From NCBI GenBank assembly GCA_949286885.1, contig CASEEG010000045.1:1-44272 (forward strand): a stretch of 44,272 nucleotides of DNA. Reading direction: 5' to 3'. Each line of letters starts with the position of its first letter. Position 1 is the stretch's first letter. This DNA comes from an uncultured bacterium. GTDB taxonomy: Bacteria > Cyanobacteriota > Vampirovibrionia > Gastranaerophilales > Gastranaerophilaceae. A program made the translations under genes and the position numbers. The notes beneath the pieces were generated by a model, which was given only the letters and a program-made list of their open reading frames with translations, made no database searches and was not told where the DNA came from. Shown here one piece after another: positions 15,452 to 26,703 of this stretch.

Positions 15452-15898
15452 ATGAAATTAAACAACTTAACTAAATTTACAACTTCTAACCTCCTTTCAT
15501 TGCTTGGGTATCCGGGTATTTTGTATTTTTCATACATAAGATTTATATTTTTCCCACTTGACTGGGCAGACCTTGAGGGTTACCACTATGACAGGGATAT
15601 GCTGGGTTTTGTTTCAAGCGCCACAAGTGCGCTGTACTTTATGCTGGCATGCTTTATCTGCGCTGTGTTTTTTGTTCTCATTCTTATTGAATTTTTTATT
15701 AGAAAGAAGAACAAAACAGAGTTTCAACTGGTTAATAAAATTCCTGATAAATTTAAACTTTTGTATAGAATTTTATTCTGGTTAGGACTCTTTTTTGTTT
15801 CACCTCTTGGTCCTCTGGGTGTGTTTTTCTTGCACATGTTTTTTGAAGTATGTTTCAACTACTCGGAATTATTTTTAAGGCTGATAGACAAACTATGA
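15452..15898 (+). CDS. Small multi-pass membrane protein, copy 1
   Basis: This 148-residue protein of unknown family has about three or four hydrophobic segments: near 12-35, a long one near 58-85 (SALYFMLACFICAVFF), and near 112-138. A cytoplasmic-type basic stretch RKKNKTE lies between. The start is ATG 15452, because the second copy begins with the same MKL-LTK-TTSNLLSLLGYP sequence at its own ATG. Its stop overlaps the start of copy 2 (ATGA), so the two are translationally coupled. Only 38 bases separate it from the divergent DUF6973-like gene; a role as membrane-bound immunity protein or holin-like protein is possible but unproven. Confidence 0.72.
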   Translation: MKLNNLTKFTTSNLLSLLGYPGILYFSYIRFIFFPLDWADLEGYHYDRDMLGFVSSATSALYFMLACFICAVFFVLILIEFFIRKKNKTEFQLVNKIPDKFKLLYRILFWLGLFFVSPLGPLGVFFLHMFFEVCFNYSELFLRLIDKL

Positions 15899-16335
15899 AA
15901 TTAATTGGTTTAACTAAACTTACAACTTCAAACCTCCTTTCATTACTTGGATATCCTTGCATTTTACTGTCGCTTTATAACGAGTTTATATTTTCCCCGC
16001 TTGACTGGACAGATCTTGAAGGCTACCACTACGACAGGGATATGCTGGGTTTTGTTTCAAGTGCCACAAGTGCGCTGTACTTTATGCTGGCATGTTTTAT
16101 CTGCGCTGTGTTTTTTGTTCTCATTCTTATTGAATTTTTTATTAGAAAGAAGAACAAAACAGAGTTTCAATTGGTTAATAAAATTCCTGATAAATTTAAA
16201 CCCTTGTATAAAATTTTGTTTTGGTTAGGACTCTTTTTTGTTTCACCTCTTGGTCCTTTGAGTATGTTTTTCTTGTACTTGTTTCTTGAGAAATATTTTA
16301 ACTATTCCGAGATATTTTTAAGGTTAATAAATTAA
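15895..16335 (+). CDS. Small multi-pass membrane protein, copy 2
   Basis: A 146-residue paralogue of the gene just before it. The central block from LDW-DLEGYHYDRDMLG to FFVSPLGPL is almost identical in protein and DNA, while the first 45 and last 25 residues differ more (for example ILLSLYNEFIF against ILYFSYIRFIF). Start is ATG 15895 in the ATGA overlap. It converges with the small - strand gene at 16357. As with copy 1, no known family is recognised. Confidence 0.72.
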   Translation: MKLIGLTKLTTSNLLSLLGYPCILLSLYNEFIFSPLDWTDLEGYHYDRDMLGFVSSATSALYFMLACFICAVFFVLILIEFFIRKKNKTEFQLVNKIPDKFKPLYKILFWLGLFFVSPLGPLSMFFLYLFLEKYFNYSEIFLRLIN

Positions 16336-16356
16336 TCTATAAATTCTCTATAACCT

Positions 16357-16599
16357 TTAATCTCCGTGGGTTTGCAGAAAATAATCATAAATTTTGTCGA
16401 TTTTTTCCTTTATTTCACCCCACTGGTTTTTTAGTTCTTTAATGTAAATAATCGAAGCAAAACGCCCTTGGCATTCGTTCATTATTTCTCTGTGTTTTTT
16501 CTCTAATGCCTCAGGAGTTATAAAAATTCTCGTTTGTGCGGCAAAAATAATAATTACTATTAAAATAGGTGCAAATTCAAGGTAGTTATCGATATTCAT
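16357..16599 (-). CDS. Small single-span membrane protein with helical tail
   Basis: An 80-residue protein with one N-terminal membrane helix (about 9-26, FAPILIVIIIFAAQTRIF) and a charged, probably coiled-coil tail (about 33-75) ending KIDKIYDYFLQTHGD. It follows the large terminase by 12 bases in the same direction, with an AAAGGA ribosome-binding site. In phages, small proteins of this shape near lysis or packaging genes are often holin- or spanin-like, but I see no diagnostic motif, so the role is open. Confidence 0.6.
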   Translation of the reverse strand: MNIDNYLEFAPILIVIIIFAAQTRIFITPEALEKKHREIMNECQGRFASIIYIKELKNQWGEIKEKIDKIYDYFLQTHGD

Positions 16600-16611
16600 T
16601 TTTTGTCCTTT

Positions 16612-17901
16612 CTAAATAATTGGGAAATAATACTCTACAAGGTAGCTTGCAGCATCAAAAGGGTGTGAGAGGAATTTTAGCTCTTTGTTATTTTTAATTG
16701 CCCAATATGTTGGAATGTCAATGTTAGAGCCACCTTCACGGTATTTTAAATTGTTCATATTGTAAATTAATTTTTCGCATTTAGGGTCGATTAAAATTTT
16801 TCTCTGTCCATCCATTGACTTTACCATGGAGCAAAAAGCCGCTACCCTGTTTTTAATTGGCGGATTAAATTGCCTTAGATGAAATTCGACATTTCTTTTC
16901 ATTTTTTGTGCAAAAAAGTTGCGAATGAGCATGTAATTTGTATACTCACTGACGCATGTCCGATTATCGCCTGAGGCATCACCGTTTATAATAATTTTGC
17001 CTTTGTGATAAGGATATCTGCGGGCAAATTCTTCGCAAGTTTGGGTTGTGGTTGTGTTCTCAAGCACAATTTCATCAAAAAAGTAAACTTTATGATTATC
17101 AATGTGGGCTAAAATCCAACACATTGGATCAACGTTAAAGTCGCAAGAAATGTGCAAGTCGCAATAATCTAAATAATTTACTTTTGTAATGTTTTCACTG
17201 CTGAAATTTGGTACTACAAGCGGGCAGTTGTCCTCATCAAATTCACCGAGGACATTTCTTTTGTAGTAGCTTTCATCGTAAGCGCTTTTTAAGTTTTCAC
17301 AAAAGTCTTTAGGTAGATAAATATTTTCTGTAGATGGGGCAAGAACGAGGCGATAGTTAGGTTTTTTGCTGTCTGCAAAATTTTTGTAAATCCAGCCACG
17401 TCTGCTCTGTGGGTTTGTGTGCCCAAAAATCCTATATTTAAAGTCCCTCCAGCTTTTTTTCTTTTTTTGTCGCATACGCCCTAAAAGCATTTTAAATGTT
17501 GCTTCAGGAATGTCGGACATTTCTTCAATTTCAGCAAAACCAAGGTTTAGCGACTTTAGTTTATTTGGTTCGTCAAAGTGTCGAAAAAGAATATTAGAAC
17601 CGTTTTTAAAGACAATTTTTTGTTGTGATTTTATAAATTGCCAGTCGTTGCCCTCTTGCAAGCCAAAATTTTCAAAGTGCTCAAAATAAGCATTTAGTGT
17701 GGTATCTCGAACAAGTGAGTAAGTTTGTGCACCGCAAAGCCCGTTTATACCTGGAAATTTCAGACACAGAAGAGTCCCTAAAAGCGAGCCGGCCCAGGTT
17801 TTACCCGAGCCGAATCCGCCTTGATACACACATACGTCCAGTTCTAAATTGTGTGGGACTTCAAGGAATTTCTTTTGTGTTTTAAGGAGTTTGTATTTCA
17901 T
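16612..17901 (-). CDS. terL: Phage terminase large subunit
   Basis: The motor-nuclease that packages viral DNA into proheads through the portal. The N-terminal ATPase has Walker A GGFGSGKT at 28-35 and a Walker B-like GFAEIEEMSD (about 120-130). The C-terminal RNase H-like nuclease shows three acidic positions: DFNVDP, NGDASGD and PFDAA near the end. I place the start at ATG 17901 (429 residues) because a GGAGGG ribosome-binding site lies 8-9 bases upstream; the in-frame extension to 17973 is Lys/Arg-rich and lies inside the portal gene. The first 20 bases overlap the portal gene. Catalytic residues appear intact. Confidence 0.93.
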   Translation of the reverse strand: MKYKLLKTQKKFLEVPHNLELDVCVYQGGFGSGKTWAGSLLGTLLCLKFPGINGLCGAQTYSLVRDTTLNAYFEHFENFGLQEGNDWQFIKSQQKIVFKNGSNILFRHFDEPNKLKSLNLGFAEIEEMSDIPEATFKMLLGRMRQKKKKSWRDFKYRIFGHTNPQSRRGWIYKNFADSKKPNYRLVLAPSTENIYLPKDFCENLKSAYDESYYKRNVLGEFDEDNCPLVVPNFSSENITKVNYLDYCDLHISCDFNVDPMCWILAHIDNHKVYFFDEIVLENTTTTQTCEEFARRYPYHKGKIIINGDASGDNRTCVSEYTNYMLIRNFFAQKMKRNVEFHLRQFNPPIKNRVAAFCSMVKSMDGQRKILIDPKCEKLIYNMNNLKYREGGSNIDIPTYWAIKNNKELKFLSHPFDAASYLVEYYFPII

Positions 17902-19621
17902 TTTTTTTACCCTCCAAGACGTTTTGTTGTGTTTTTGCCTTTTGAGAGGAATTTTGCGCATTTTTTTGCGCAATTTGCTCTTGTGTTAAAAGAAATTTTG
18001 ATGTGTTTTCTACACCAAGTGTTGCAAGGGTGTATTTAAAGCACTCTTCCCAATTAATTTTTTGTGCGATGTCAGGAATTTTTGAAAATTCGGAAATAGT
18101 TTTTTGAACTTCTTTAAATTTTGAGTTTTTTGCAATGGTTGTTTTTCTGTCTGAGTATTTATATACAAAATTGCCTTCACGAACATCAGGTGTAATATCA
18201 ACAATTACTGATTTTCCTTCAACTTCGGTACTGATTTTAGATTCACCAATCATAAAATTAGCATTTGTGAGCGCTGTTTTTTCTAAAAGCGGCATGATAA
18301 TTTTTCTGTTTATTGAGTCTATAAACCAGTTAAGACGTGCACTTTGCCCGTTTGCCGTATAGTTTAATTCGGTTGCAGTACGCTCTCCTGCCTCTTGTAT
18401 GCTGCCTGCCATATTGTCGAAAATTCCCGTTGCCCTCTCAATTTGGCTTTTAAAGAATTTTATGAATTCCCAACCGCCAAGCATTGCACTAAAGTTAAGA
18501 GGTTGCGGCATTTGTGGCAACAATGACGGGTCATATTCTATTATTTTACCCGGTTTAACTTCGATTTCTCCATGGAAAGCACCTCTGGGAGCTAAAAATG
18601 GCGGATTTGATACAAGCTTATGCCCTAAAATTTGTGTTTGCATAATCTCTCCTGCCGTATTTAAAACAGGAATTACTGGTGCTAAGGGGCTTAAACCGCG
18701 TTTTGTACAAGGGTCTTGTATGATATTGGCATAAATATAAGGACAGTTTATGTAAGGATTTACCTCGTTCTGCACTACGGCAAGCCTGCCAACTACCACT
18801 ATCATACGGTTTTTTAAGATTTTTCCGCTATCAAGTCTTATGTTGCCGAAAAATTTTAGTACTTCAACAAGCCCGTCAGAAATGCCTGTTGTGTCTTTGT
18901 CTTTTTTTGAGCGTTCAAGTAGCATTGCAAGTTCTTGTGCTGCTTGTTTTGTTATTGTAAAATTTTCTCTGTTTTCTAAGATTTCATTAATTTCCATCCA
19001 ACTGCGGTGAATTTTTGGACAACTATCCCAGTTATGTGCCCGTTGGGTGTCAAAAACAAAGTCATGCGCAGGAATTATTTTAAGGGATGTGCCTTCATAG
19101 GTTTTTTCTTTTATTGTTTTAAAAGTTTCAAGGAGCGGATTTTGAATTTTTTCGTATAAAGTTGTCGCAACACGTCTGCTTCTCCAACGTGTTTCCCAAC
19201 CTACAAACATTGTTATTTCGCCCGTTTCTATTAATTGATCTATTATTTTTTCAAGGTTATTTGAAAATCTCATTTTTTCAAGCGCATTACACAGAAACAG
19301 TTTATGTTTGTTTGCGCGTTCTGTACTTGAATTATCTGCCTCGCATACGTCAAAAAGACCTTCAGGATATGACGGGATAGCTTCTAAAAGGTGTGCTTTA
19401 AGTGTTGCGGCTTGTTCCCATGCATCTGGTAAATTTATTTTTTTGCTACCTGTTTCATTGTGTGAATATGTGCCAAAAATGGCATTTCTGATACTTTTAA
19501 TGTGTGAGAGTTGATTTCTTCTTTCTTCGTTCAACTTATCAAATTTTTCACAAATTTTATTTTTAATTTCTTCCGTTTCAAGATCGCTGAGTTTTGCCGG
19601 TTCAAATTCTGTATTTTTCAT
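17882..19621 (-). CDS. Phage portal protein (podovirus/P22-like head-tail connector)
   Basis: The 579-residue protein would form the dodecameric portal through which DNA enters and leaves the capsid. Evidence: position between small and large terminase, length typical of podovirus portals, an N-terminal alpha/beta part, a central segment with ERATGIFDNMAG and ERTATELNYTANGQSARL (characteristic stem/wing-type helices), and a Gln/Ala/Lys-rich C-terminal tail (about 545-579). An AGGAAAGG ribosome-binding site precedes the ATG. The frame is intact. The exact portal subfamily cannot be fixed without a profile search. Confidence 0.85.
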   Translation of the reverse strand: MKNTEFEPAKLSDLETEEIKNKICEKFDKLNEERRNQLSHIKSIRNAIFGTYSHNETGSKKINLPDAWEQAATLKAHLLEAIPSYPEGLFDVCEADNSSTERANKHKLFLCNALEKMRFSNNLEKIIDQLIETGEITMFVGWETRWRSRRVATTLYEKIQNPLLETFKTIKEKTYEGTSLKIIPAHDFVFDTQRAHNWDSCPKIHRSWMEINEILENRENFTITKQAAQELAMLLERSKKDKDTTGISDGLVEVLKFFGNIRLDSGKILKNRMIVVVGRLAVVQNEVNPYINCPYIYANIIQDPCTKRGLSPLAPVIPVLNTAGEIMQTQILGHKLVSNPPFLAPRGAFHGEIEVKPGKIIEYDPSLLPQMPQPLNFSAMLGGWEFIKFFKSQIERATGIFDNMAGSIQEAGERTATELNYTANGQSARLNWFIDSINRKIIMPLLEKTALTNANFMIGESKISTEVEGKSVIVDITPDVREGNFVYKYSDRKTTIAKNSKFKEVQKTISEFSKIPDIAQKINWEECFKYTLATLGVENTSKFLLTQEQIAQKNAQNSSQKAKTQQNVLEGKKNEIQTP

Positions 19622-19638
19622 ATTTAATTTAGCCTTTC

Positions 19639-20043
19639 CTAGATTTTGTCGGGGTCAAGCCCTTCTATACTTTCAAATATTGATTTTTTTGTTCTTAATT
19701 CCTCATATCTATTACCGCTCAACTGTTTGCAGAGTCCATCCAGTGCTCTTAGTGCCAGTTGTGGCTCTTTTAGTCCGTTTTCGTCTTCAAAAAATGCATA
19801 TTCAATTATCTTTAGATATTTTTGGACGATATAGCCTTTTGTAATTTCCAGTTTTTGCGCATTTTGTTGTATGATTTTGTTTAATTGTTTCAATTTTTTA
19901 GGATCGTCGAGGATTTTTTTTACGTTTGTAACAGAAGTTTGATTTTTATATCCTGCAAGATGTGCACTTTGTTCTGCGTCGAGTGTTTTGGCATAATGTT
20001 CGAGAAATTTTTTTTGGTTATTGTTTATATTTTCTTTATCCAT
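19639..20043 (-). CDS. terS: Phage terminase small subunit
   Basis: A 134-residue protein with the N-terminal helix-turn-helix pattern of small terminases: QKKFLEHYAKTLDAEQSAHLAGYKNQTSV followed by a helical linker and an oligomerisation region. It would recognise the packaging site and recruit the large terminase. It is first in the terS-portal-terL unit, 17 bases ahead of the portal. There is no good Shine-Dalgarno sequence before the ATG (AAGAAATATTAAAA only), so translation may depend on an unstructured AT-rich leader. Confidence 0.83.
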   Translation of the reverse strand: MDKENINNNQKKFLEHYAKTLDAEQSAHLAGYKNQTSVTNVKKILDDPKKLKQLNKIIQQNAQKLEITKGYIVQKYLKIIEYAFFEDENGLKEPQLALRALDGLCKQLSGNRYEELRTKKSIFESIEGLDPDKI

Positions 20044-20067
20044 TTTTAATATTTCTTAATAAAGTCA

Positions 20068-20096
20068 TTGATTTTTATAGCTTAATTATGTACAAT
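20068..20096 (+). promoter_or_regulatory. Candidate + strand promoter upstream of terS
   Basis: TTGATT (20068-20073), exactly 17 bases, then TACAAT (20091-20096). It points away from terS, into a 50-base stretch that ends in a strong hairpin terminator, and no protein gene follows it. Confidence 0.5.
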
Positions 20097-20102
20097 GGTT
20101 GT

Positions 20103-20153
20103 GTTGTTAATGCTTCGGCTAGTATGCGAATGGGGTTTCGACCCCTTTTTTTT
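20103..20153 (+). ncRNA. Candidate small RNA antisense to the terS leader
   Basis: From the predicted start near 20103 to the T8 run at 20146-20153 lies a transcript of about 50 bases. Its end is a GGGGT-TTCG-ACCCC hairpin with the very stable UUCG loop. It would be complementary to the 5' leader of the terS mRNA. No match to a known RNA family is recognised; expression is inferred only from promoter and terminator shape. The GGTTTCGACC part superficially resembles a tRNA T-arm, but there is no tRNA here. Confidence 0.4.
20132..20153 (+). terminator. UUCG-loop terminator, + direction
   Basis: GGGGT (20132-20136), TTCG, ACCCC (20141-20145), then eight T. On the - strand the hairpin is preceded by A8 and not followed by T, so it stops only + strand transcription, that is, antisense transcription relative to the virus genes. 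Confidence 0.8.
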
Positions 20154-20182
20154 CCGCTCGGTACTGGGCAAAGATTAACATT

Positions 20183-20222
20183 AAAAAAAGCCCCAATGCA
20201 GCACAAAATTGCTGCGTGGGGC
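20183..20222 (-). terminator. Terminator of the scaffold-like gene
   Basis: On the - strand GCCCCA...GCAGCA pairs with TGCTGC...TGGGGC (one small internal bulge), followed by T7. It begins 11 bases after the scaffold-like stop and separates that unit from terS. Confidence 0.9.
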
Positions 20223-20232
20223 GTTGTGTCTT

Positions 20233-20889
20233 TTAGCTGTTTTTGATGAGGTTTAGTATTTGTGCATCAATTTCGTCTTTATGTTTTAGAAATTCATCTG
20301 TTGACATTTTGTTGATGTCTTGTGCGCTATAGAATTGCTGATTTTTTAAATCTCCGTCAAGACTATCCAAAACATCCTTTTCAAGTTTATTTGTCAGCTT
20401 AGAATTTTCGTTTGTCAAAAATTGTGCGTATTTTGGATTTTTGGCACAAAAACGTTTAATTGCCTCTTCTTCTATTGTTTTTGTAATTTGTGCGATTTTG
20501 TTAAGTTCGTCCAAATCAAGATTTGCATTGGCAGAATTTAAATATTCAAAAAGCACTTCTCTTTGATTAAAAAAGTCAGGATTTTCTTTAATAAATTCTT
20601 TAAAAATCTGCGGTATTTGTTGTGTTCTATTTGTGTTTAACGCACCTGTTTGTGGGTTGTTTAGTATTTTTGTACCATTTGAATTGTTTACATTATTAAC
20701 GTTAGAACCTTGTTTTTTTTGGGCATTATCTAAATACAAGGACTTTAAGAGTGATAGTAAAATTTCCCTCTTTTCGAGTGGGCCTGCTTGCGTGTTTTGG
20801 TACTGGGCGGCCTTCGTTGCTGAGGTAGCGTCAGGTTTTTGGCCAAAGAGTGTCCTCAGTAAAAGTTCTTGAACCATATTATCTTTCAT
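20233..20889 (-). CDS. Putative capsid scaffold / virion assembly protein
   Basis: This 218-residue protein has no enzyme motif. It has a Gln/Asn-rich low-complexity part (about 25-95) and a long helical, charged C-terminal half, a composition common in phage scaffolds and internal virion proteins. It lies between the major capsid and terminase genes. The last 30 residues (FYSAQDINKMSTDEFLKHK then DEIDAQIL) carry an M-S/T-x-x-E-F motif often seen at the C-terminus of small capsid-associated proteins and shared with the DUF6973-like protein. A GGAAGG ribosome-binding site precedes the ATG. Its place after, rather than before, the capsid gene is unusual for a scaffold, so the role is tentative. 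Confidence 0.55.
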   Translation of the reverse strand: MKDNMVQELLLRTLFGQKPDATSATKAAQYQNTQAGPLEKREILLSLLKSLYLDNAQKKQGSNVNNVNNSNGTKILNNPQTGALNTNRTQQIPQIFKEFIKENPDFFNQREVLFEYLNSANANLDLDELNKIAQITKTIEEEAIKRFCAKNPKYAQFLTNENSKLTNKLEKDVLDSLDGDLKNQQFYSAQDINKMSTDEFLKHKDEIDAQILNLIKNS

Positions 20890-20923
20890 CTTATCCCTTC
20901 CTTTAACCTAGTTTTACGTGAAT

Positions 20924-20944
20924 GTCCCTTCGGGGACTTTTTTT
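20924..20944 (+). terminator. UUCG-loop terminator, + direction, ahead of the scaffold gene
   Basis: GTCCC (20924-20928), TTCG, GGGAC (20933-20937) and T7. It lies 35 bases upstream of the scaffold-like ATG. Like the hairpin before terS it is oriented against the virus genes. On the - strand a TATAAT about 10 bases before it could make the same hairpin the 5' end of the scaffold mRNA. Confidence 0.75.
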
Positions 20945-21003
20945 ATGAATTATATCTTTGTTTCGTTCTTGGTTTAATGCTGTTTATTATTTCGGCATGT
21001 AGA

Positions 21004-21867
21004 TTATATTTCACATTTTAATACGGCTAAGGCTTTTGGATTTACTGCCACTGCACCAAATGTGTAAAGTCCTCTTACAATTGTGTCAAAAGACTGTTCT
21101 GCTCTTATTTGTTCGAATTTCTTAATTTGAGATGCATATGTAATACCCTCAGTCGTACCTGCCATAATTGTATAGCTGCCGTCTGTTTCTTTGCCCACAT
21201 TGCTGCTTACAAAAACATCAAGACCGGCAATTCTTCCGATAGAACCTTCTTTTTTAGCTTTATCAGATTCATTTGATGCTCCTGAGAATTGTTCGCAAAG
21301 CAGTAATATTTCTTCTACATCAGGGTGAACAACTACCCAACCATGTTTTTGAGATGTAATTGCGCCTGTGTTTTTAAGAAGCTTTGACAGTGAAACAAAT
21401 TGAGAATAAATATTTGTTTTGCTAAGCGTAATGGGTGATTCTTCTTCCCCTTCTAAAATATTTGCAGTATCTGCTTCTGTGTTCATTGTGAAAATATATT
21501 TATCAATACCTTCATCAATTGCTTTTTGTGCTTTTGTTAAAATAGCATCAGTTAAAGAAATATTTGTTTGTGCCTGTGTAATATCTGGAACACTGAATGA
21601 AAAATATAAATTTTGGTTTAGTTTTAAAGATTTGCTTGACACTGTTGCAGCAGTGTATGCAGGTAATGTGCCTGTATAAGTTCCTGTAGCAACACTTTCC
21701 GGAGTTACAATTTTGATTTCCGATGTTCCATTGTCGGCTTCTGCTTGATAATCGCGGTTTACACATTGTAGCATTGTGCAGTTTTTGTCTAAACCTGCAT
21801 TGATTTTTTTGCTCCAAGTGCTAACAATCAAGCTGCTGTAAGCGGTTGATAAATTTTGTTGTGCCAT
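21004..21867 (-). CDS. Phage major capsid protein (HK97-fold type)
   Basis: A 287-residue protein with the profile of a tailed-phage coat protein: N-terminal arm (AQQNLSTAYSSLIVSTWSKK), an extended region with KIVTPESVATGTYTG, a helical spine region (about 110-150), a domain with GWVVVHPDVEEILLL and RIAGLDVFVSSNV, and a C-terminal ...RGLYTFGAVAVNPKALAVLK, typical for coat proteins of this fold. The start is ATG 21867, with an AAAGGA site upstream and a plausible arm; the in-frame extension to 21963 lies in the preceding gene. It is 44 bases behind the GNAT gene. The fold call is inference from pattern and context. Confidence 0.83.
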   Translation of the reverse strand: MAQQNLSTAYSSLIVSTWSKKINAGLDKNCTMLQCVNRDYQAEADNGTSEIKIVTPESVATGTYTGTLPAYTAATVSSKSLKLNQNLYFSFSVPDITQAQTNISLTDAILTKAQKAIDEGIDKYIFTMNTEADTANILEGEEESPITLSKTNIYSQFVSLSKLLKNTGAITSQKHGWVVVHPDVEEILLLCEQFSGASNESDKAKKEGSIGRIAGLDVFVSSNVGKETDGSYTIMAGTTEGITYASQIKKFEQIRAEQSFDTIVRGLYTFGAVAVNPKALAVLKCEI

Positions 21868-21910
21868 TTCTTTTTTTTCCTTTCTTTTATATGTGCCTTC
21901 CCGCAAGGCT

Positions 21911-22444
21911 CTATAGTGCGGGATTAAATTTTGAGAATATATGAAGATTTTCAGCTCTTCCATTCTTGAAACATTCTTTTTTTAATGTGGCTTCATATTC
22001 AAATTCCAGTTTTTCAATCAATTTCCAGGCGTATGAATTTTCGCCTACTATTTCCACACTCAGCTTTCTCACATTCATTGTTTCGAATAAGAATTTGAGT
22101 CCTTTTTTGGCTATTGCATAAGAACCAAACCCCCAATAAGGTCTGCATATACACAATGTTATTTTAGAGTCGAAATATCCGTTTGCTGCTTTTTTAGTTT
22201 CATAGAGGTAAAAAAAGCCTGCAAATTTTTCTTCTTTTCCAAGTAATACAAAGTATATGTTATCTTTAAATTGTTTTATGAAATTGAAAAATCTTTCAGG
22301 AGTTGAAAAATTTATACGAAAAAAATCATCATCAAATAATCTGGAATGATATTTCAGACAGAGTTTAAAAAATTTTAGTAGTTCTTTATGCCTTATTTTT
22401 TTAAAATTAATGTCAAACAGTTCGCTTAATTTATTTATTTTCAT
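21911..22444 (-). CDS. GNAT-family N-acetyltransferase in the capsid unit
   Basis: The 177-residue protein fits the GNAT fold: FYLYETKKAANGYFDSKITLCICRP strands, the acetyl-CoA loop region RPYWGFGSYAIAKKGLKFLFE (normally Q/RxxGxG/A), then VRKLSVEIVGENSYAWKLIEKLEFEYEATLKKECFKNGR, the RimJ/RimL-type ending. The acceptor is unknown. The GAGG ribosome-binding site is 5 bases before the ATG. Lying directly ahead of the major capsid gene, it may acetylate a virion or host protein, or simply be carried cargo. Confidence 0.82.
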   Translation of the reverse strand: MKINKLSELFDINFKKIRHKELLKFFKLCLKYHSRLFDDDFFRINFSTPERFFNFIKQFKDNIYFVLLGKEEKFAGFFYLYETKKAANGYFDSKITLCICRPYWGFGSYAIAKKGLKFLFETMNVRKLSVEIVGENSYAWKLIEKLEFEYEATLKKECFKNGRAENLHIFSKFNPAL

Positions 22445-22495
22445 GGTTGCCTCTTTTGTAAATTTGTGGTATTTTTATAGTGGAGATTGGAATTT

Positions 22496-22966
22496 ATGCA
22501 AAATGATGAAAAATTTCTTGTTATAGAGCAGTATAGAGTTTATTCTGAAGCTAAAGATTCTTTTATTGCCAGAAACTTTCAAACAAACAGATTTTATCTG
22601 GTCTTGTCTTTGGTTCTGTTTTTATTACTTTATGTGTTTTATGCACTTACGCCTTCCGTTGTTCCAATTGTTGTAGGTTCGGTGATTGGCATGGCTGTAT
22701 GTGTCATGTGGTGGTTAAATCTGGACAGTTACCAATTTTTAATTAAGATTAAATATTCTAAAGTTCTTGAAGAGATGGAGGGCTTACTTCCGTTTAGTCC
22801 ATATAAAAGAGAATATGAAGCTTTTCAGGAAGCTAAAAAGAATAAGAAAGCGATTGTTTTTTCTGATTTTCAGAAATTTCTCACAATAATTCTTTTCTGT
22901 ATATATTTGGTTATTTTCTCAAATGGTATCAGCTCTTTGCTTTTGAATATGATAAAACTGTACTAA
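22496..22966 (+). CDS. RipA-like small membrane protein
   Basis: This 156-residue protein resembles the RipA-type octameric membrane proteins: an N-terminal EQYRVYSEAKDSF helix, two membrane helices (about 33-52 and 57-76), then W-x-x-x-L-x-S/D-Y, a helix with KYSKVLEEMEGLLPFSPYKREYEAF, and a C-terminal hydrophobic helix (about 133-152). RipA is known from Francisella as a cytoplasmic-membrane protein; its mechanism is unclear. The start is ATG 22496: a GGAG site lies 10 bases upstream and would be too close to the TTG at 22487. It is the only + strand gene inside the virus head/tail block, suggesting separate expression as an accessory gene. Its stop overlaps the connector stop by four bases. 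Confidence 0.65.
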   Translation: MQNDEKFLVIEQYRVYSEAKDSFIARNFQTNRFYLVLSLVLFLLLYVFYALTPSVVPIVVGSVIGMAVCVMWWLNLDSYQFLIKIKYSKVLEEMEGLLPFSPYKREYEAFQEAKKNKKAIVFSDFQKFLTIILFCIYLVIFSNGISSLLLNMIKLY

Positions 22967-23631
22967 CCAAAAGTTATCCTTGGTGAGTCCTCATAGGACT
23001 TTGTACCAGAGGTTCTTAGGTTGGTTATTGAGTTATAGTACAGTGTTCTCCAGTATCCGAATTTCGCGAAAGATGGGTTTGCCTTTACTTTGATTAATGT
23101 GCCGTAGACCAAAATCGGTTCTAAATAGGGCAGTGGCAATATGCTTGTATCATTTTTGTTTTCCATTTTTAGTTTTTTTTCGCCGTTTTCATCTTGTGCA
23201 TAAAAGTCTGAGACGTATATTACGCTAAGTTTTCTTTGTTTATTTGATGGCATCGCAATAATTAGATCGCCAATGTTTGAATAATAGTCTGAATTATTTT
23301 GGTTATTGCCGGCAAGCAGAGAGGGATGAATGTATTTGTACTTTTTTGTACCTTCCCAAACAGAAATAATCTTGCCTCCAAAATCTTCAAAAATTGTTGT
23401 TTGATTATTTTCTAAAGTTATTTCACTTTTTTCTATTTGAAAATCCCATATGTACGAGCTTAATACTTCGGAGTTTGTAGAATTAATTAAATTAAGAATT
23501 CTTTTATGTTCACTTTTTATTATTTCGTCAAAATCACTTACTTCTCTCCAACTAAGTTCATTTAATACTTTTGTAAAAATTTCAAAATAGGTTGGCTTTA
23601 TTCTTGTTGTATTTGTGCTATTTTCGCTCAT
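22963..23631 (-). CDS. Putative head-tail connector / adaptor protein
   Basis: A 222-residue protein with the pattern of podovirus connector proteins (P22 gp4 / tail tubular A-like): an N-terminal helical part with ILNLINSTNSEVLSSYIWDFQ, then a beta-rich middle with SVIYVSDF, and a helical PLPYLEPILVYGTLIKVKANPSFAKFGYWRTLYYNSITNLR segment typical of the ring-forming helices. A perfect AAGGAGG ribosome-binding site precedes the ATG. It follows the tail-hub genes in the same operon. No single diagnostic residue exists, so the call rests on pattern and position. Confidence 0.68.
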   Translation of the reverse strand: MSENSTNTTRIKPTYFEIFTKVLNELSWREVSDFDEIIKSEHKRILNLINSTNSEVLSSYIWDFQIEKSEITLENNQTTIFEDFGGKIISVWEGTKKYKYIHPSLLAGNNQNNSDYYSNIGDLIIAMPSNKQRKLSVIYVSDFYAQDENGEKKLKMENKNDTSILPLPYLEPILVYGTLIKVKANPSFAKFGYWRTLYYNSITNLRTSGTKSYEDSPRITFG

Positions 23632-23642
23632 TTATTCCTCCT

Positions 23643-23873
23643 TTATACAAAACCTAAAAATTCATAAATAAATCCTTTACATGTGAATTTATTTAATCCG
23701 TCCCGACATATTTTTGCGGTTAATTTTTTGCCTCTTGTGTTGTTCTTCAAATCCTCCAAGAGCTTGTATGCTCGGATTTTGATCTTAAAATCTGCAAACA
23801 TAGAACTTTTGGTCCAAACAGCATGTTCCCCAAGCATTTGCATATACTCATAATTGTGTTTATCAGAAATCAT
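23643..23873 (-). CDS. Small hypothetical protein in the tail operon
   Basis: A 76-residue basic protein with no recognised domain and no membrane segment. It begins within the last 11 bases of the preceding 510-residue gene, with an AGGAG ribosome-binding site 8 bases upstream inside that gene, so translation is coupled. It lies 11 bases ahead of the connector gene. It could be a small tail or assembly factor. Confidence 0.65.
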   Translation of the reverse strand: MISDKHNYEYMQMLGEHAVWTKSSMFADFKIKIRAYKLLEDLKNNTRGKKLTAKICRDGLNKFTCKGFIYEFLGFV

Positions 23874-25395
23874 TTAACAACTCCTTGAACTCAATTCCTA
23901 CAAGCCTAAAGCCATCACCTTCTTCTTCGCCTTCTATGTTAAGTGCCACACTGAGATTTGAGTCAAAGATTTGCACGCTTACAGAACTTTGGCAAGAATT
24001 TGCCCAAATAGGCGAGTAGTCATTTTCAAAGCAGTTGTATTTGTTTTTTGGCTCTTCTTCGGAAGCCCATATTAATACGCCCGTTTGTACTGTTCTGATG
24101 TATTCATGATCTGTTTTTATTTCTTTTATAAAATCTTTAGAAACGCTGAATTTGAATTTGTTTTCACCGGTTTCATCAAGTAGTAGTGCAAAATCTTCTA
24201 TAATTTTTCTCTCTGATGGTTTACCAAGATGAAAAAAAGGTGTTGTGAAATTAAATTTTATTGTATCTCCGTCAAAAGTAGAACCTATGTTCTCTTGTAA
24301 AATTTTTCCGTTTGAACAACCTGAGAAAACTTCCGAATTGATATTTGCTGCAGATGTTATTTCTTGTGTTTCTATTCTTTTTGTCCAGCAATTATTTGCA
24401 AAATCGTAAATCCATATTGTACTGAAAAATTCATTGTCCGAATATGGTAGGTAGAACCATAATTGATTTTTTTTCTCGTACGGAACACAAAAAGCTTCGT
24501 GCATTCTGCTTCTGTCAGCATTTTTAAATGCATCTTCCACTGCAGATGCGATATTGCCACTCATCATTATTTGTGAAAGTTCTCCAACTTGAGAAAGTGC
24601 AAAAAGTCCATCGGCATTGAAAAAATACTGTTTGTTGTTGCAAGTGCATACAGCTTTTGAGCTTTCCGTACCTTTGTCGGCAAATTTTATTATTGCAAAG
24701 TTTTCAGGAGATGAACCCGAGAGCAGATACACGCCGTCAGACTTGAATATGGCGAGATTTCCACAGTAAAGCGCCAGTGCTGAAATTTTTGTTACTGAAG
24801 AGTGAAAATTTGAAATATATCCAGCATCATTTTCGCTTTCCCAATCATTAAATCTTCCAAGAGCACTGTAATACAGAGTAGCATTAGAGCCGATCCAAAG
24901 TCTGCCTGCATAAGAGGATATTGTGTCCGGCTTTATATCATTTCCTTTTGTATCTTTTGCATTCAGTTGATTTAATTTTGTTTCCAGATTCTTGTTAAAA
25001 TAATAGCCTTCGCAATTTTGAGCAAAAAATGCAATGCCATCCAAATATAATGTAAAATCAACAGCCTTAATTTGTTTTCCATAATCATGGATTGTACTTG
25101 TTTGACCGCTTTGATAATCATAGTATTTGATTTTACCGTTGGATTTTGCAAATAAAAACCCTGCAGTCATTTTAGGGTACTCGCATAAACCTATTATAGA
25201 GGATTCGTCTTCCAAGCCTTCATCTAAGAATGTTTGGTTCCCCAGCATACGTTCTACGCCTTGATTTTTATAGAGTTCTACATTGTAACTGTCATCCCAA
25301 TTGAGTTTTTTCGCCCCATAGCCGAGCATTACTTTTGTGGCGTTAGTATTTATGCCGCCAGAAAAATCGTAAAAAGCTAATTTATTATCGCTCAT
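23863..25395 (-). CDS. Phage tail hub / DNA-stabilisation protein (beta-propeller)
   Basis: The 510-residue protein resembles P22 gp10-like packaged-DNA stabilisation proteins and related podovirus nozzle proteins, which close the portal after packaging. It starts with FYDFSGGINTNAT, a typical opening, and contains blade-like repeats: GFLFAKSNGKIKYYDYQSG, GIAFFAQNCEGYYFN, AGRLWIGSNATLYYSAL, GNLAIFKSDGVYLLSGSS, KQYFFNADGLFALS, KNQLWFYLPYSDN. It overlaps the amidase gene by 11 bases. The propeller is read from the repeats; the precise gp10 homology needs a profile search. Confidence 0.78.
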   Translation of the reverse strand: MSDNKLAFYDFSGGINTNATKVMLGYGAKKLNWDDSYNVELYKNQGVERMLGNQTFLDEGLEDESSIIGLCEYPKMTAGFLFAKSNGKIKYYDYQSGQTSTIHDYGKQIKAVDFTLYLDGIAFFAQNCEGYYFNKNLETKLNQLNAKDTKGNDIKPDTISSYAGRLWIGSNATLYYSALGRFNDWESENDAGYISNFHSSVTKISALALYCGNLAIFKSDGVYLLSGSSPENFAIIKFADKGTESSKAVCTCNNKQYFFNADGLFALSQVGELSQIMMSGNIASAVEDAFKNADRSRMHEAFCVPYEKKNQLWFYLPYSDNEFFSTIWIYDFANNCWTKRIETQEITSAANINSEVFSGCSNGKILQENIGSTFDGDTIKFNFTTPFFHLGKPSERKIIEDFALLLDETGENKFKFSVSKDFIKEIKTDHEYIRTVQTGVLIWASEEEPKNKYNCFENDYSPIWANSCQSSVSVQIFDSNLSVALNIEGEEEGDGFRLVGIEFKELLNDF

Positions 25396-25870
25396 AATAC
25401 CACCTTACTTTATTTCTGATGTAGTCTCCGACCTCATTTTTTTCTATTGAGGGTTCATATGGAATATATGTAATGTCTATTTTTCCCGCACTTGTTGAAT
25501 TAGGGAACATTTTTCCGACTTCGTAGTGAGTCATTATGGTGTTTTTTGCAGGTTTTAAGCCATATTTTTTAAGCAGAGTTGCACAGTAGGCAAAAGCGCT
25601 TTCTGCCTGGATTCTTAAAAATGGGAAATTACCTACATTTAAAGGATTCTTATAACCATACATAGCACAAAGGGCGACCCCTATTGAACCGGTGTTAAAA
25701 TCACCTGTATGTGCTGCATAATATCCGTCATTACAGTTGAGGTTGTCTTCAGGTTTATATTTTCCTTTTGTAATATTTCCTTTGTTGTCAACCAAAAAAT
25801 GATAGTGTTCAAAATCCGTTAATGAAGGAGTATAATTGCCCCCGCTCCAATGTAGAATTATTCTGTTCAT
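25385..25870 (-). CDS. N-acetylmuramoyl-L-alanine amidase (Amidase_2, endolysin-type)
   Basis: A zinc amidase that cuts the bond between MurNAc and L-alanine in peptidoglycan. From ATG 25870 the 161-residue protein shows the zinc ligands His7 (ILHWSGG), His115 (MTHYEVG) and Asp132 with the nearby Lys130 (GKIDITY), plus His54 (AAHTGD). All key residues are intact. There is no signal peptide and no binding domain, as in T7-lysozyme-like endolysins. The start is fixed by an AGGAG site 6-7 bases upstream; it lies within the preceding regulator gene, giving a 62-base overlap. A holin is not clearly identifiable in the same operon. Confidence 0.92.
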   Translation of the reverse strand: MNRIILHWSGGNYTPSLTDFEHYHFLVDNKGNITKGKYKPEDNLNCNDGYYAAHTGDFNTGSIGVALCAMYGYKNPLNVGNFPFLRIQAESAFAYCATLLKKYGLKPAKNTIMTHYEVGKMFPNSTSAGKIDITYIPYEPSIEKNEVGDYIRNKVRWYYER

Positions 25871-26090
25871 GTGTTTCTCCTGAAAGTAAATCAAATGCTA
25901 TTTTTCCGTAAATATCCAAAAAACGCGTTATTGCTTGAGTTCTGTTTTGTGCGCGAAATTTTAAATAAATTCTCGAGAGGTGATTTTGGACTGTGCGAAC
26001 GCTCAAGCCTAGAGTGCTTGCTATTGCTCTATCTTTGAGTCCTAAGCAAAGCAACGACATTACTTGTTTTTCTCGGTTTGTAAGCTTCAT
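25809..26090 (-). CDS. Stand-alone LuxR/GerE-type HTH regulator
   Basis: A 93-residue protein consisting of a LuxR-type DNA-binding domain (LTNREKQVMSLLCLGLKDRAIASTLGLSVRTVQNHLSRIYLKF, residues 3-46) and a short tail, with no sensor or receiver domain. The start is ATG 26090: an AGGA site lies 6 bases upstream, and the -10 box of the likely promoter falls inside the longer in-frame extension to 26162. It is first in the virus late operon and probably controls it, as an activator or autoregulator. The last 62 bases overlap the amidase gene. Confidence 0.85.
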   Translation of the reverse strand: MKLTNREKQVMSLLCLGLKDRAIASTLGLSVRTVQNHLSRIYLKFRAQNRTQAITRFLDIYGKIAFDLLSGETHEQNNSTLERGQLYSFINGF

Positions 26091-26136
26091 TTTTATTCCT
26101 ATCTTGGGGGTTGGTTTATTAATATCAGCAAATAGC

Positions 26137-26164
26137 ATTATAAAAATAAATATATTTTCCAAAG
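26137..26164 (-). promoter_or_regulatory. Putative promoter of the virus tail operon
   Basis: On the - strand CTTTGG/TTTGGA (26164-26158), 15-16 bases, then TATAAT (26142-26137), about 47 bases before the regulator ATG at 26090. This supports the shorter start of the regulator. Confidence 0.5.
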
Positions 26165-26191
26165 TTAAATTTTATTTTTTATATATTTACT

Positions 26192-26216
26192 AAAAGCCTT
26201 GTCGCAAAGCTTTTTT
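26192..26216 (+). terminator. Hairpin with T tract, + direction
   Basis: AAAAGCCTTG (26192-26201), TCG, CAAAGCTTTT (26205-26214), with one mismatch, followed by more T. On the + strand T6 follows; on the - strand T4. It marks the right limit of the virus module and is the third hairpin of this orientation ahead of a virus transcription unit. Confidence 0.6.
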
Positions 26217-26703
26217 ACAATAATTAAAATCAAATTTATTTTTGTAAATTTTTGTGAACGTGAAAAAATAACCAAAAAATTGGACAATTTTTTAAGCATT
26301 TGTATATCCTCGCTCCAAAGCCGTAAACTTTATTATTATGGGGTTGTGGGTTTTAACTATTCACATAATAACAAACAAATACTTTTTGAAAATCGCCAAA
26401 ATTACTTGAGTAATTTTAACTATTGGGGTTATCAAAGCTCTTTTATAAATCTTGTACAGAGAGAATTTTGACAATTTTTGCAAGTTAAAAATTTTATTAT
26501 TTTAATTATAATTTTACAAAAATTAATAAAAATTAAGCGTGTATAAATGAACATGCAACTGTAAAATAAAACATTAAATTAGTTCTTCTGTAATAGCAGT
26601 CTGTGAGGTTTTTTAATAATATTTTTACCTGAAACAAGAATAACATTTGTTTTATTGATATTATTCTACAACCTAACAATATAAATAATGGTGGCTTAAT
26701 TTA
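26217..26703. other. AT-rich intergenic region next to the virus module
   Basis: Nearly 490 bases without a convincing gene. A frame at 26199-26471 begins with TTG, lacks a ribosome-binding site and reads like random AT-rich DNA. The region holds a 20-base near-palindrome, AAAATTACT-TG-AGTAATTTT (26398-26417), and a direct 11-base repeat TTTTAACTATT at 26351-26361 and 26414-26424. These could be regulatory sites. No attachment site or tRNA end is evident. Confidence 0.55.
26398..26417. repeat. 20-base near-palindrome, possible operator
   Basis: Perfect 9-base arms AAAATTACT / AGTAATTTT around TG. Such symmetry fits a dimeric DNA-binding protein, but perfect arms of this length also arise by chance in AT-rich spacers. 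Confidence 0.35.

Follow-up and report, generated by a model that had tools for sequence, protein, structure and literature searches.

Which transcripts would be ended by hairpins with T tracts pointing in the + direction, in a region where the virus-like genes run on the - strand? The window (the whole stretch of DNA analysed, 44,272 nucleotides) is a single contig from a draft genome of 1.58 Mb whose closest named relatives are Candidatus Gastranaerophilales, among them one Candidatus Galligastranaerophilus. From about 26.1 down to 16.4 kb, its - strand encodes a compact virus-like module with genes for a LuxR-type regulator, an amidase, a virion protein, a capsid, a scaffold-position protein, the terminase small subunit (TerS), a head-tail connector and TerL. 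The features around the hairpins are:

19639-20043, - strand: TerS (PF03592, E 1.3e-8; phrog_51)
20183-20222, - strand: sense terminator of the 20233-20889 gene, separating it from TerS (hairpin 20190-20222, then T7)
20233-20889, - strand: probable scaffold gene, named from its position alone, between capsid and TerS
20890-20917, - strand: leader of the scaffold-position gene, 28 nt identical in 12 of 14 genus genomes and lacking one A in the other two
20924-20944, + strand: terminator-like hairpin (20924-20937, GTCCC-TTCG-GGGAC) followed by T7, between the capsid and scaffold-position genes
21004-21963, - strand: major capsid protein (phrog_267, E 4e-33)
22496-22966, + strand: 8xMP-family membrane protein gene (PF24838, E 4.5e-20)

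Of the 383 family genomes, 214 have the capsid protein, as do 14 of the 15 in the genus, in most cases as a single copy. The scaffold-position protein had no family match in domain and phrog searches. Hairpins of other sequence occupy the site of the 20183-20222 terminator in relatives. The module (about 10 kb, 16357-26162) is of a short-tailed virus type and carries terminase, connector, capsid and amidase genes; judged from its sequence, it is a candidate domesticated particle or gene transfer agent. A search of viral_contigs returned no match to the capsid protein, nor to either DNA motif. Adjoining the module end is a 300-nt direct repeat (15542-15841 and 15985-16284, 93% identical, spacing 443). 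At the module head, the contigs of all nine relatives L031-L039 stop 4.6-5.0 kb upstream of the capsid gene, and these ends look as though the assembly breaks at the module edge.

An earlier note on this DNA had described three UUCG-loop hairpins of + orientation at the heads of the virus units. We applied a strict terminator rule (5 or more stem pairs, of which 4 or more are G-C, a loop of 3-8 and T7 or more) to 16301-26700. On the + strand, only the hairpins at 20132 and 20924 qualified, against a chance expectation of 0.033 on average (300 first-order Markov simulations), and none qualified on the - strand. The intergenic regions between capsid and scaffold and between scaffold and TerS, taken from 14 genus genomes, show both hairpins to be conserved. 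The 20924 hairpin abuts T7-9 in all 14, which are the module-bearing genomes of the genus, and the 20132 hairpin is followed by T8 in 13 of 13 (the fourteenth is left out of this count, as its contig stops too early). The description thus holds for 20132-20153 and 20924-20944. It does not hold for 26192-26216, which has no UUCG loop (AAAAGCcTTGtcgCAAaGCTTTT), lies inside a - strand small ORF and is unpreserved in 13 aligned relatives. This ORF, read by eye, has about 44 codons (~26160-26300) and is flanked by the module promoter and the LuxR-type gene. Ahead of that gene we also noted a dyad, AAATTACTcAAGTAATTT, that is strongly conserved and accompanied by a TTTTCA-16-TATTAT promoter (26365-26420), the probable operator-promoter of the module. 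The note had further held that there are no + strand protein genes for the hairpins to end. The 8xMP gene is a + strand gene inside the module, although it is located past the hairpins, which do not terminate it.

Read in the + direction, the block around 20132 opens with a promoter, continues with a conserved body and closes with a terminator, and the DNA past the T tract is variable. We interpret it as a small RNA gene with these parts:

20068-20073, + strand: -35 box TTGATT, from a pattern scan
20091-20096, + strand: -10 box TACAAT, read 17 nt ahead of a TTCGG anchor
20102-20153, + strand: small RNA of about 52 nt, its start placed from the -10 box and its end from the T tract
20104-20129, + strand: hairpin P1, loop UCGGCU at 20115-20120, from folding energy and pairing counts
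20132-20153, + strand: intrinsic terminator (20132-20145, GGGGT-TTCG-ACCCC, then T8), from the strict rule and stem replacements across genera

The 65 distinct copies share a common layout of -35 box, 17 nt, -10 box, 17 nt and TTCGG anchor, with one copy (L048) having poor boxes at these offsets. Among the distinct promoters, read at the same offset, the -35 box has T at the first and second positions in 62 of 65 each and G at the third in 41 of 65. In the -10 box, A is invariant at position 2 (all 65), and T occupies positions 1 and 6 in 64 of 65 each. A 3′ hairpin followed by a T-rich tract is present in 114 of 118 small RNA sequences (90 of 118 under a stricter rule). The terminator stems differ in sequence and keep their pairing: GGGGT/ACCCC, GGGTA/TACCC, TGGGGT/ACCCCA and GGGCTG/CGGCCC. 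In genus g37, where TerS is 41% identical to that of the window, the small RNA body is identical, and its terminator stem is again paired but has another sequence. On these comparisons, the hairpin at 20132-20153 very likely terminates a + strand small RNA gene.

We propose that a sigma-70-type promoter at 20068-20096 starts an RNA of about 52 nt on the + strand at about position 20102, and that this RNA would fold into the short P1, with its nearly invariant loop UCGGCU (UCGGAU in one genus), and then into the terminator hairpin with its U tract. The strand is indicated by the fold of P1. Over 8 distinct cores, the mean minimum free energy of P1 was -3.75 kcal/mol for the + strand RNA versus -0.63 for the opposite strand. 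In the pairing count for the five core pairs, all 300 of 300 cells are paired, and at four of these pairs G.U occurs in 41, 30, 40 and 1 cells. As the opposite strand would have A.C at these places, the G.U pairs make P1 strand-specific. One pair appears as U-G, C-G and U-A. In a shuffle control, 338 of 500 shuffles paired as well, the variation being confined to few haplotypes and the base changes being one-sided wobbles. With so few independent haplotypes, this control does not separate P1 from chance, and the support for P1 is strand asymmetry, not covariation. An extended P1 stem, as in sequence type B, was tried over all types and set aside: 83.7% of cells were paired and one pair changed on both sides, which is not clearly above shuffles.

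The body is conserved across divergent hosts and contains no long ORF. A coding alternative is a micro-ORF. The RNA would then be leaderless and encode an 8-residue hydrophobic peptide, ML[FL][IM][FL]RLV, with NTG right at the transcription start. Such a codon 1 is found in 58 of 60 sequences, codon 2 is Leu throughout (CTA 29, TTG 21, TTA 10) and an in-frame TAA lies within the transcript in all 41 sequences that are not of type A. However, 18 of the 19 type A sequences, the type that includes the window, have no in-frame stop before the transcript ends; there is no ribosome-binding site, codon 1 is CTG in 2 of 60 and a non-start codon in another 2 of 60, and a G.U-compatible stem explains the same columns. 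We consider a peptide unlikely.

The hairpin at 20924-20944 presents a weaker case. In its own genome, the pattern CCCTTCGGG-N1-5-T6 occurs at 20926 alone. Beyond the genus, two g37 loci that we read contain no counterpart, and one g21 genome has a different hairpin after the capsid gene. The stem folds equally on both strands in 12 of 14 genomes and slightly better on the sense strand in L037, whereas L039 carries a change that adds a G.U pair to the antisense stem and leaves A.C at that place on the sense strand. A + strand promoter for this hairpin was not evident. Both the T7-9 that abuts the hairpin and the change in L039 speak for a + strand terminator, and we lean towards that reading. 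Most likely, the hairpin would stop + strand transcripts ahead of the capsid gene, whether these are antisense RNA or read-through; the read-through may come from the small RNA promoter. A frameshift signal formed by the A tract and hairpin was ruled out, as the capsid stop codon comes first. In five relatives (L036-L038, L040 and L043), CGAGCTTCGCTCG-like palindromes occur in repeat-rich inserts between the capsid stop and the A tract.

The earlier note had also offered protective 5′ hairpins of the virus mRNAs, which would apply chiefly to 20924 together with the scaffold leader, as sense-strand elements controlling stability or translation. The leader is indeed near-invariant across the 14 genomes, while the protein of 13 relatives is 42-68% identical to that of the window. 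However, the DNA upstream of the A tract is unconserved, and the A tract directly follows the capsid stop in 6 of 13 relatives, where a promoter would have no space between the two. On the opposite strand, T7-9 would be needless, and L039 breaks a sense pair. The 20132 hairpin does not fit, as its companion P1 pairs well on the + strand alone because of its G.U pairs. Thus a protective role fails for 20132 and is disfavoured for 20924, and the sense-strand explanation overall is improbable.

To follow the small RNA beyond the genus, a pattern allowing up to 3 mismatches was searched, which found it in 52 of 383 genomes and 4 of 41 genera, with 0 matches for the reversed control. A profile search then revealed a second sequence type ahead of TerS in further genera. 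A covariance model, R1, built from 32 of the 65 distinct copies, detected the small RNA once per genome in 141 of the 155 family genomes, and in 39 of the 41 genera. With R1, 162 of 192 genomes matched in a draw from the order and 102 of 244 in a draw from the phylum, and among the matches listed all are in the host family. The 14 family genomes without a match include G036, of the same genus and 99% completeness; the same-genus genome without a small RNA match is also without the capsid gene and the 8xMP gene. Rfam yielded no match at E<=1 in 19950-21100, and in five relatives no Rfam match overlapping the small RNA.

In many genera, the small RNA is just upstream of the TerS gene of the virus-like module and directed away from it. 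In 64 of the 65 genomes with both places listed, no more than 3.3 kb separates it from the capsid gene (largest start-to-start distance 3215 bases); the sole exception has the two genes on different contigs. In three g27 loci (L087, L092 and L093), it heads a different set of capsid-like and scaffold-like genes, named by eye, and points away from them. All 12 genomes tested from genus g22 carry the small RNA and lack a TerL match. Other genera have it among unrelated host genes. Because it is kept in g22 and placed among unrelated host genes elsewhere, we infer that it is a core gene. By sequence search, it is a near-universal, single-copy core gene of the host family, a family of gut bacteria, and the position at the module is one of several homes.

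The 8xMP gene is a second recurrent neighbour. Matches to it occur in 166 of the 383 family genomes and in 14 of the 15 from the genus, and it is often close to the small RNA, also in genomes that lack the module. A reading of 22496-22966 as a two-transmembrane immune effector was rejected: PADLOC gave 0 for the window protein, SLATT was below the cut-off and Pfam assigned 8xMP; one homologue gives a weak 4TM match in PADLOC (E 0.0032). The RNA could instead be a cis-acting leader, or attenuator, of this gene, being directly upstream and co-oriented in three g22 loci and one g3 locus examined, and in 61 of 98 genomes compared the two lie no more than 3 kb apart. Against this, the gene is 2.4 kb away in g1 and on the opposite strand in g27, many RNA-bearing genera have no 8xMP match, and generally no conserved gene follows the terminator. 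We regard a leader of the 8xMP gene as quite improbable.

The same distribution bears on insulation, a further option of the earlier note, by which both hairpins would merely block antisense transcription into the virus operons. Their orientation and strict terminator form agree with this, and for 20924, which is genus-specific and lies between the scaffold-position and capsid genes, the role is plausible; insulation of the virus operons by that hairpin is possible. However, a promoter and a conserved RNA body precede the 20132 terminator, and this whole unit is kept in genomes without a terminase match, so insulation fails as the main role of 20132. As an account of both hairpins it is very unlikely. 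Of the three options in that note, the ending of antisense RNAs came nearest: 20132-20153 does appear to end a + strand RNA. This RNA is not a by-product of virus antisense transcription, since it is family-wide, single-copy and kept in genomes without detectable terminase. Finally, a DNA site ahead of TerS (a cos/pac packaging site or protein-binding dyad) would suit the location just upstream of TerS in module-bearing genera, but it is highly improbable given that the element is present in g22 without a terminase match, that the dyads alter in sequence yet keep their pairing and T tract, and that a promoter precedes it at fixed spacing.

Sequence comparison thus establishes, as predictions, the promoter layout, a short structured RNA, its terminator, its single copy and its near-universality. 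The exposed loop may be the working part of the small RNA, acting in trans through base pairing or protein binding, and a trans-acting regulator is a reasonably likely reading. Two target leads were rejected. The loop complement TAGCCGAA near ATG was not enriched overall versus a reversed control, and the one such site common to two genus genomes (23 nt, in G000 and G095) lies inside a coding sequence, which we take from its protein to be adhE-like. For the scaffold leader, 153 of 500 shuffles pair as well. Taken as a whole, the explanation of a small RNA gene with its terminator at 20132, probably acting in trans, and a genus-specific second + strand terminator at 20924 is in our judgement likely to be correct.

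The small RNA gene is apparently undescribed. In the titles and abstract openings of open PMC articles, none on Gastranaerophilales, Melainabacteria or Gastranaerophilaceae with small or noncoding RNA describes this RNA, and those on Gastranaerophilales gene transfer agents or prophages contain nothing on it. A podovirus-like gene transfer agent is described in Faecalibacterium, in an article whose available excerpt makes no mention of Gastranaero (PMC12946183). The constancy of the loop across genera, while stems and terminator vary, indicates strong constraint and offers a short, concrete target for transcript mapping and deletion. With the RNA found repeatedly ahead of the terminase gene in a widespread capsid module, one can test whether RNA regulation by the host is linked to virus-derived particles.

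Several known RNAs invite comparison. The phi29 packaging RNA, of 120-174 nt, is also the product of a small RNA gene and resembles the present case in lying beside packaging genes in a short-tailed virus-like set. The RNA here is about 50-75 nt and is kept without a terminase match; a phi29-type packaging RNA was rejected, as all 12 g22 genomes tested carry the RNA but yield no match to TerL. DicF is a prophage-encoded sRNA, and the small RNA likewise lies within virus-derived DNA, but it is a family core gene that is not tied to the virus module.

The host bacteria are non-photosynthetic. PsrR1, also named SyR1, is a cyanobacterial sRNA of 131 nt that is under RpaB control and targets photosystem mRNAs (PMC13421787, PMC6202907, in excerpt). 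The cyanobacterial HLR1 motif is KTTACAWW-N2-KTTACAWW (PMC13421787, in excerpt). Many of the small RNA promoters have TTACATTTCTTAACA-like repeats upstream of the -35 box that resemble HLR1, a possible likeness to PsrR1. Their best scores average 13.0 of 16 versus 11.3 in shuffles, for sequences that are related and a motif that was chosen after viewing them, and we treat the putative repeats as a lead only. It is doubtful, though conceivable, that the core RNA is wired to a domesticated short-tailed module (the candidate gene transfer agent) and to 8xMP as a switch tying particle production or release to host physiology, perhaps via an RpaB-like regulator.

The small RNA is unrelated in sequence to Yfr1 of cyanobacteria, has no Rfam match and lacks the Yfr1 motif, ACUCCUCACAC. 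What it shares with Yfr1, which is 65 nt long and acts in trans on a distant mRNA (PMC6202907, in excerpt), is that both are very short, widely conserved intergenic RNAs of the cyanobacterial lineage.
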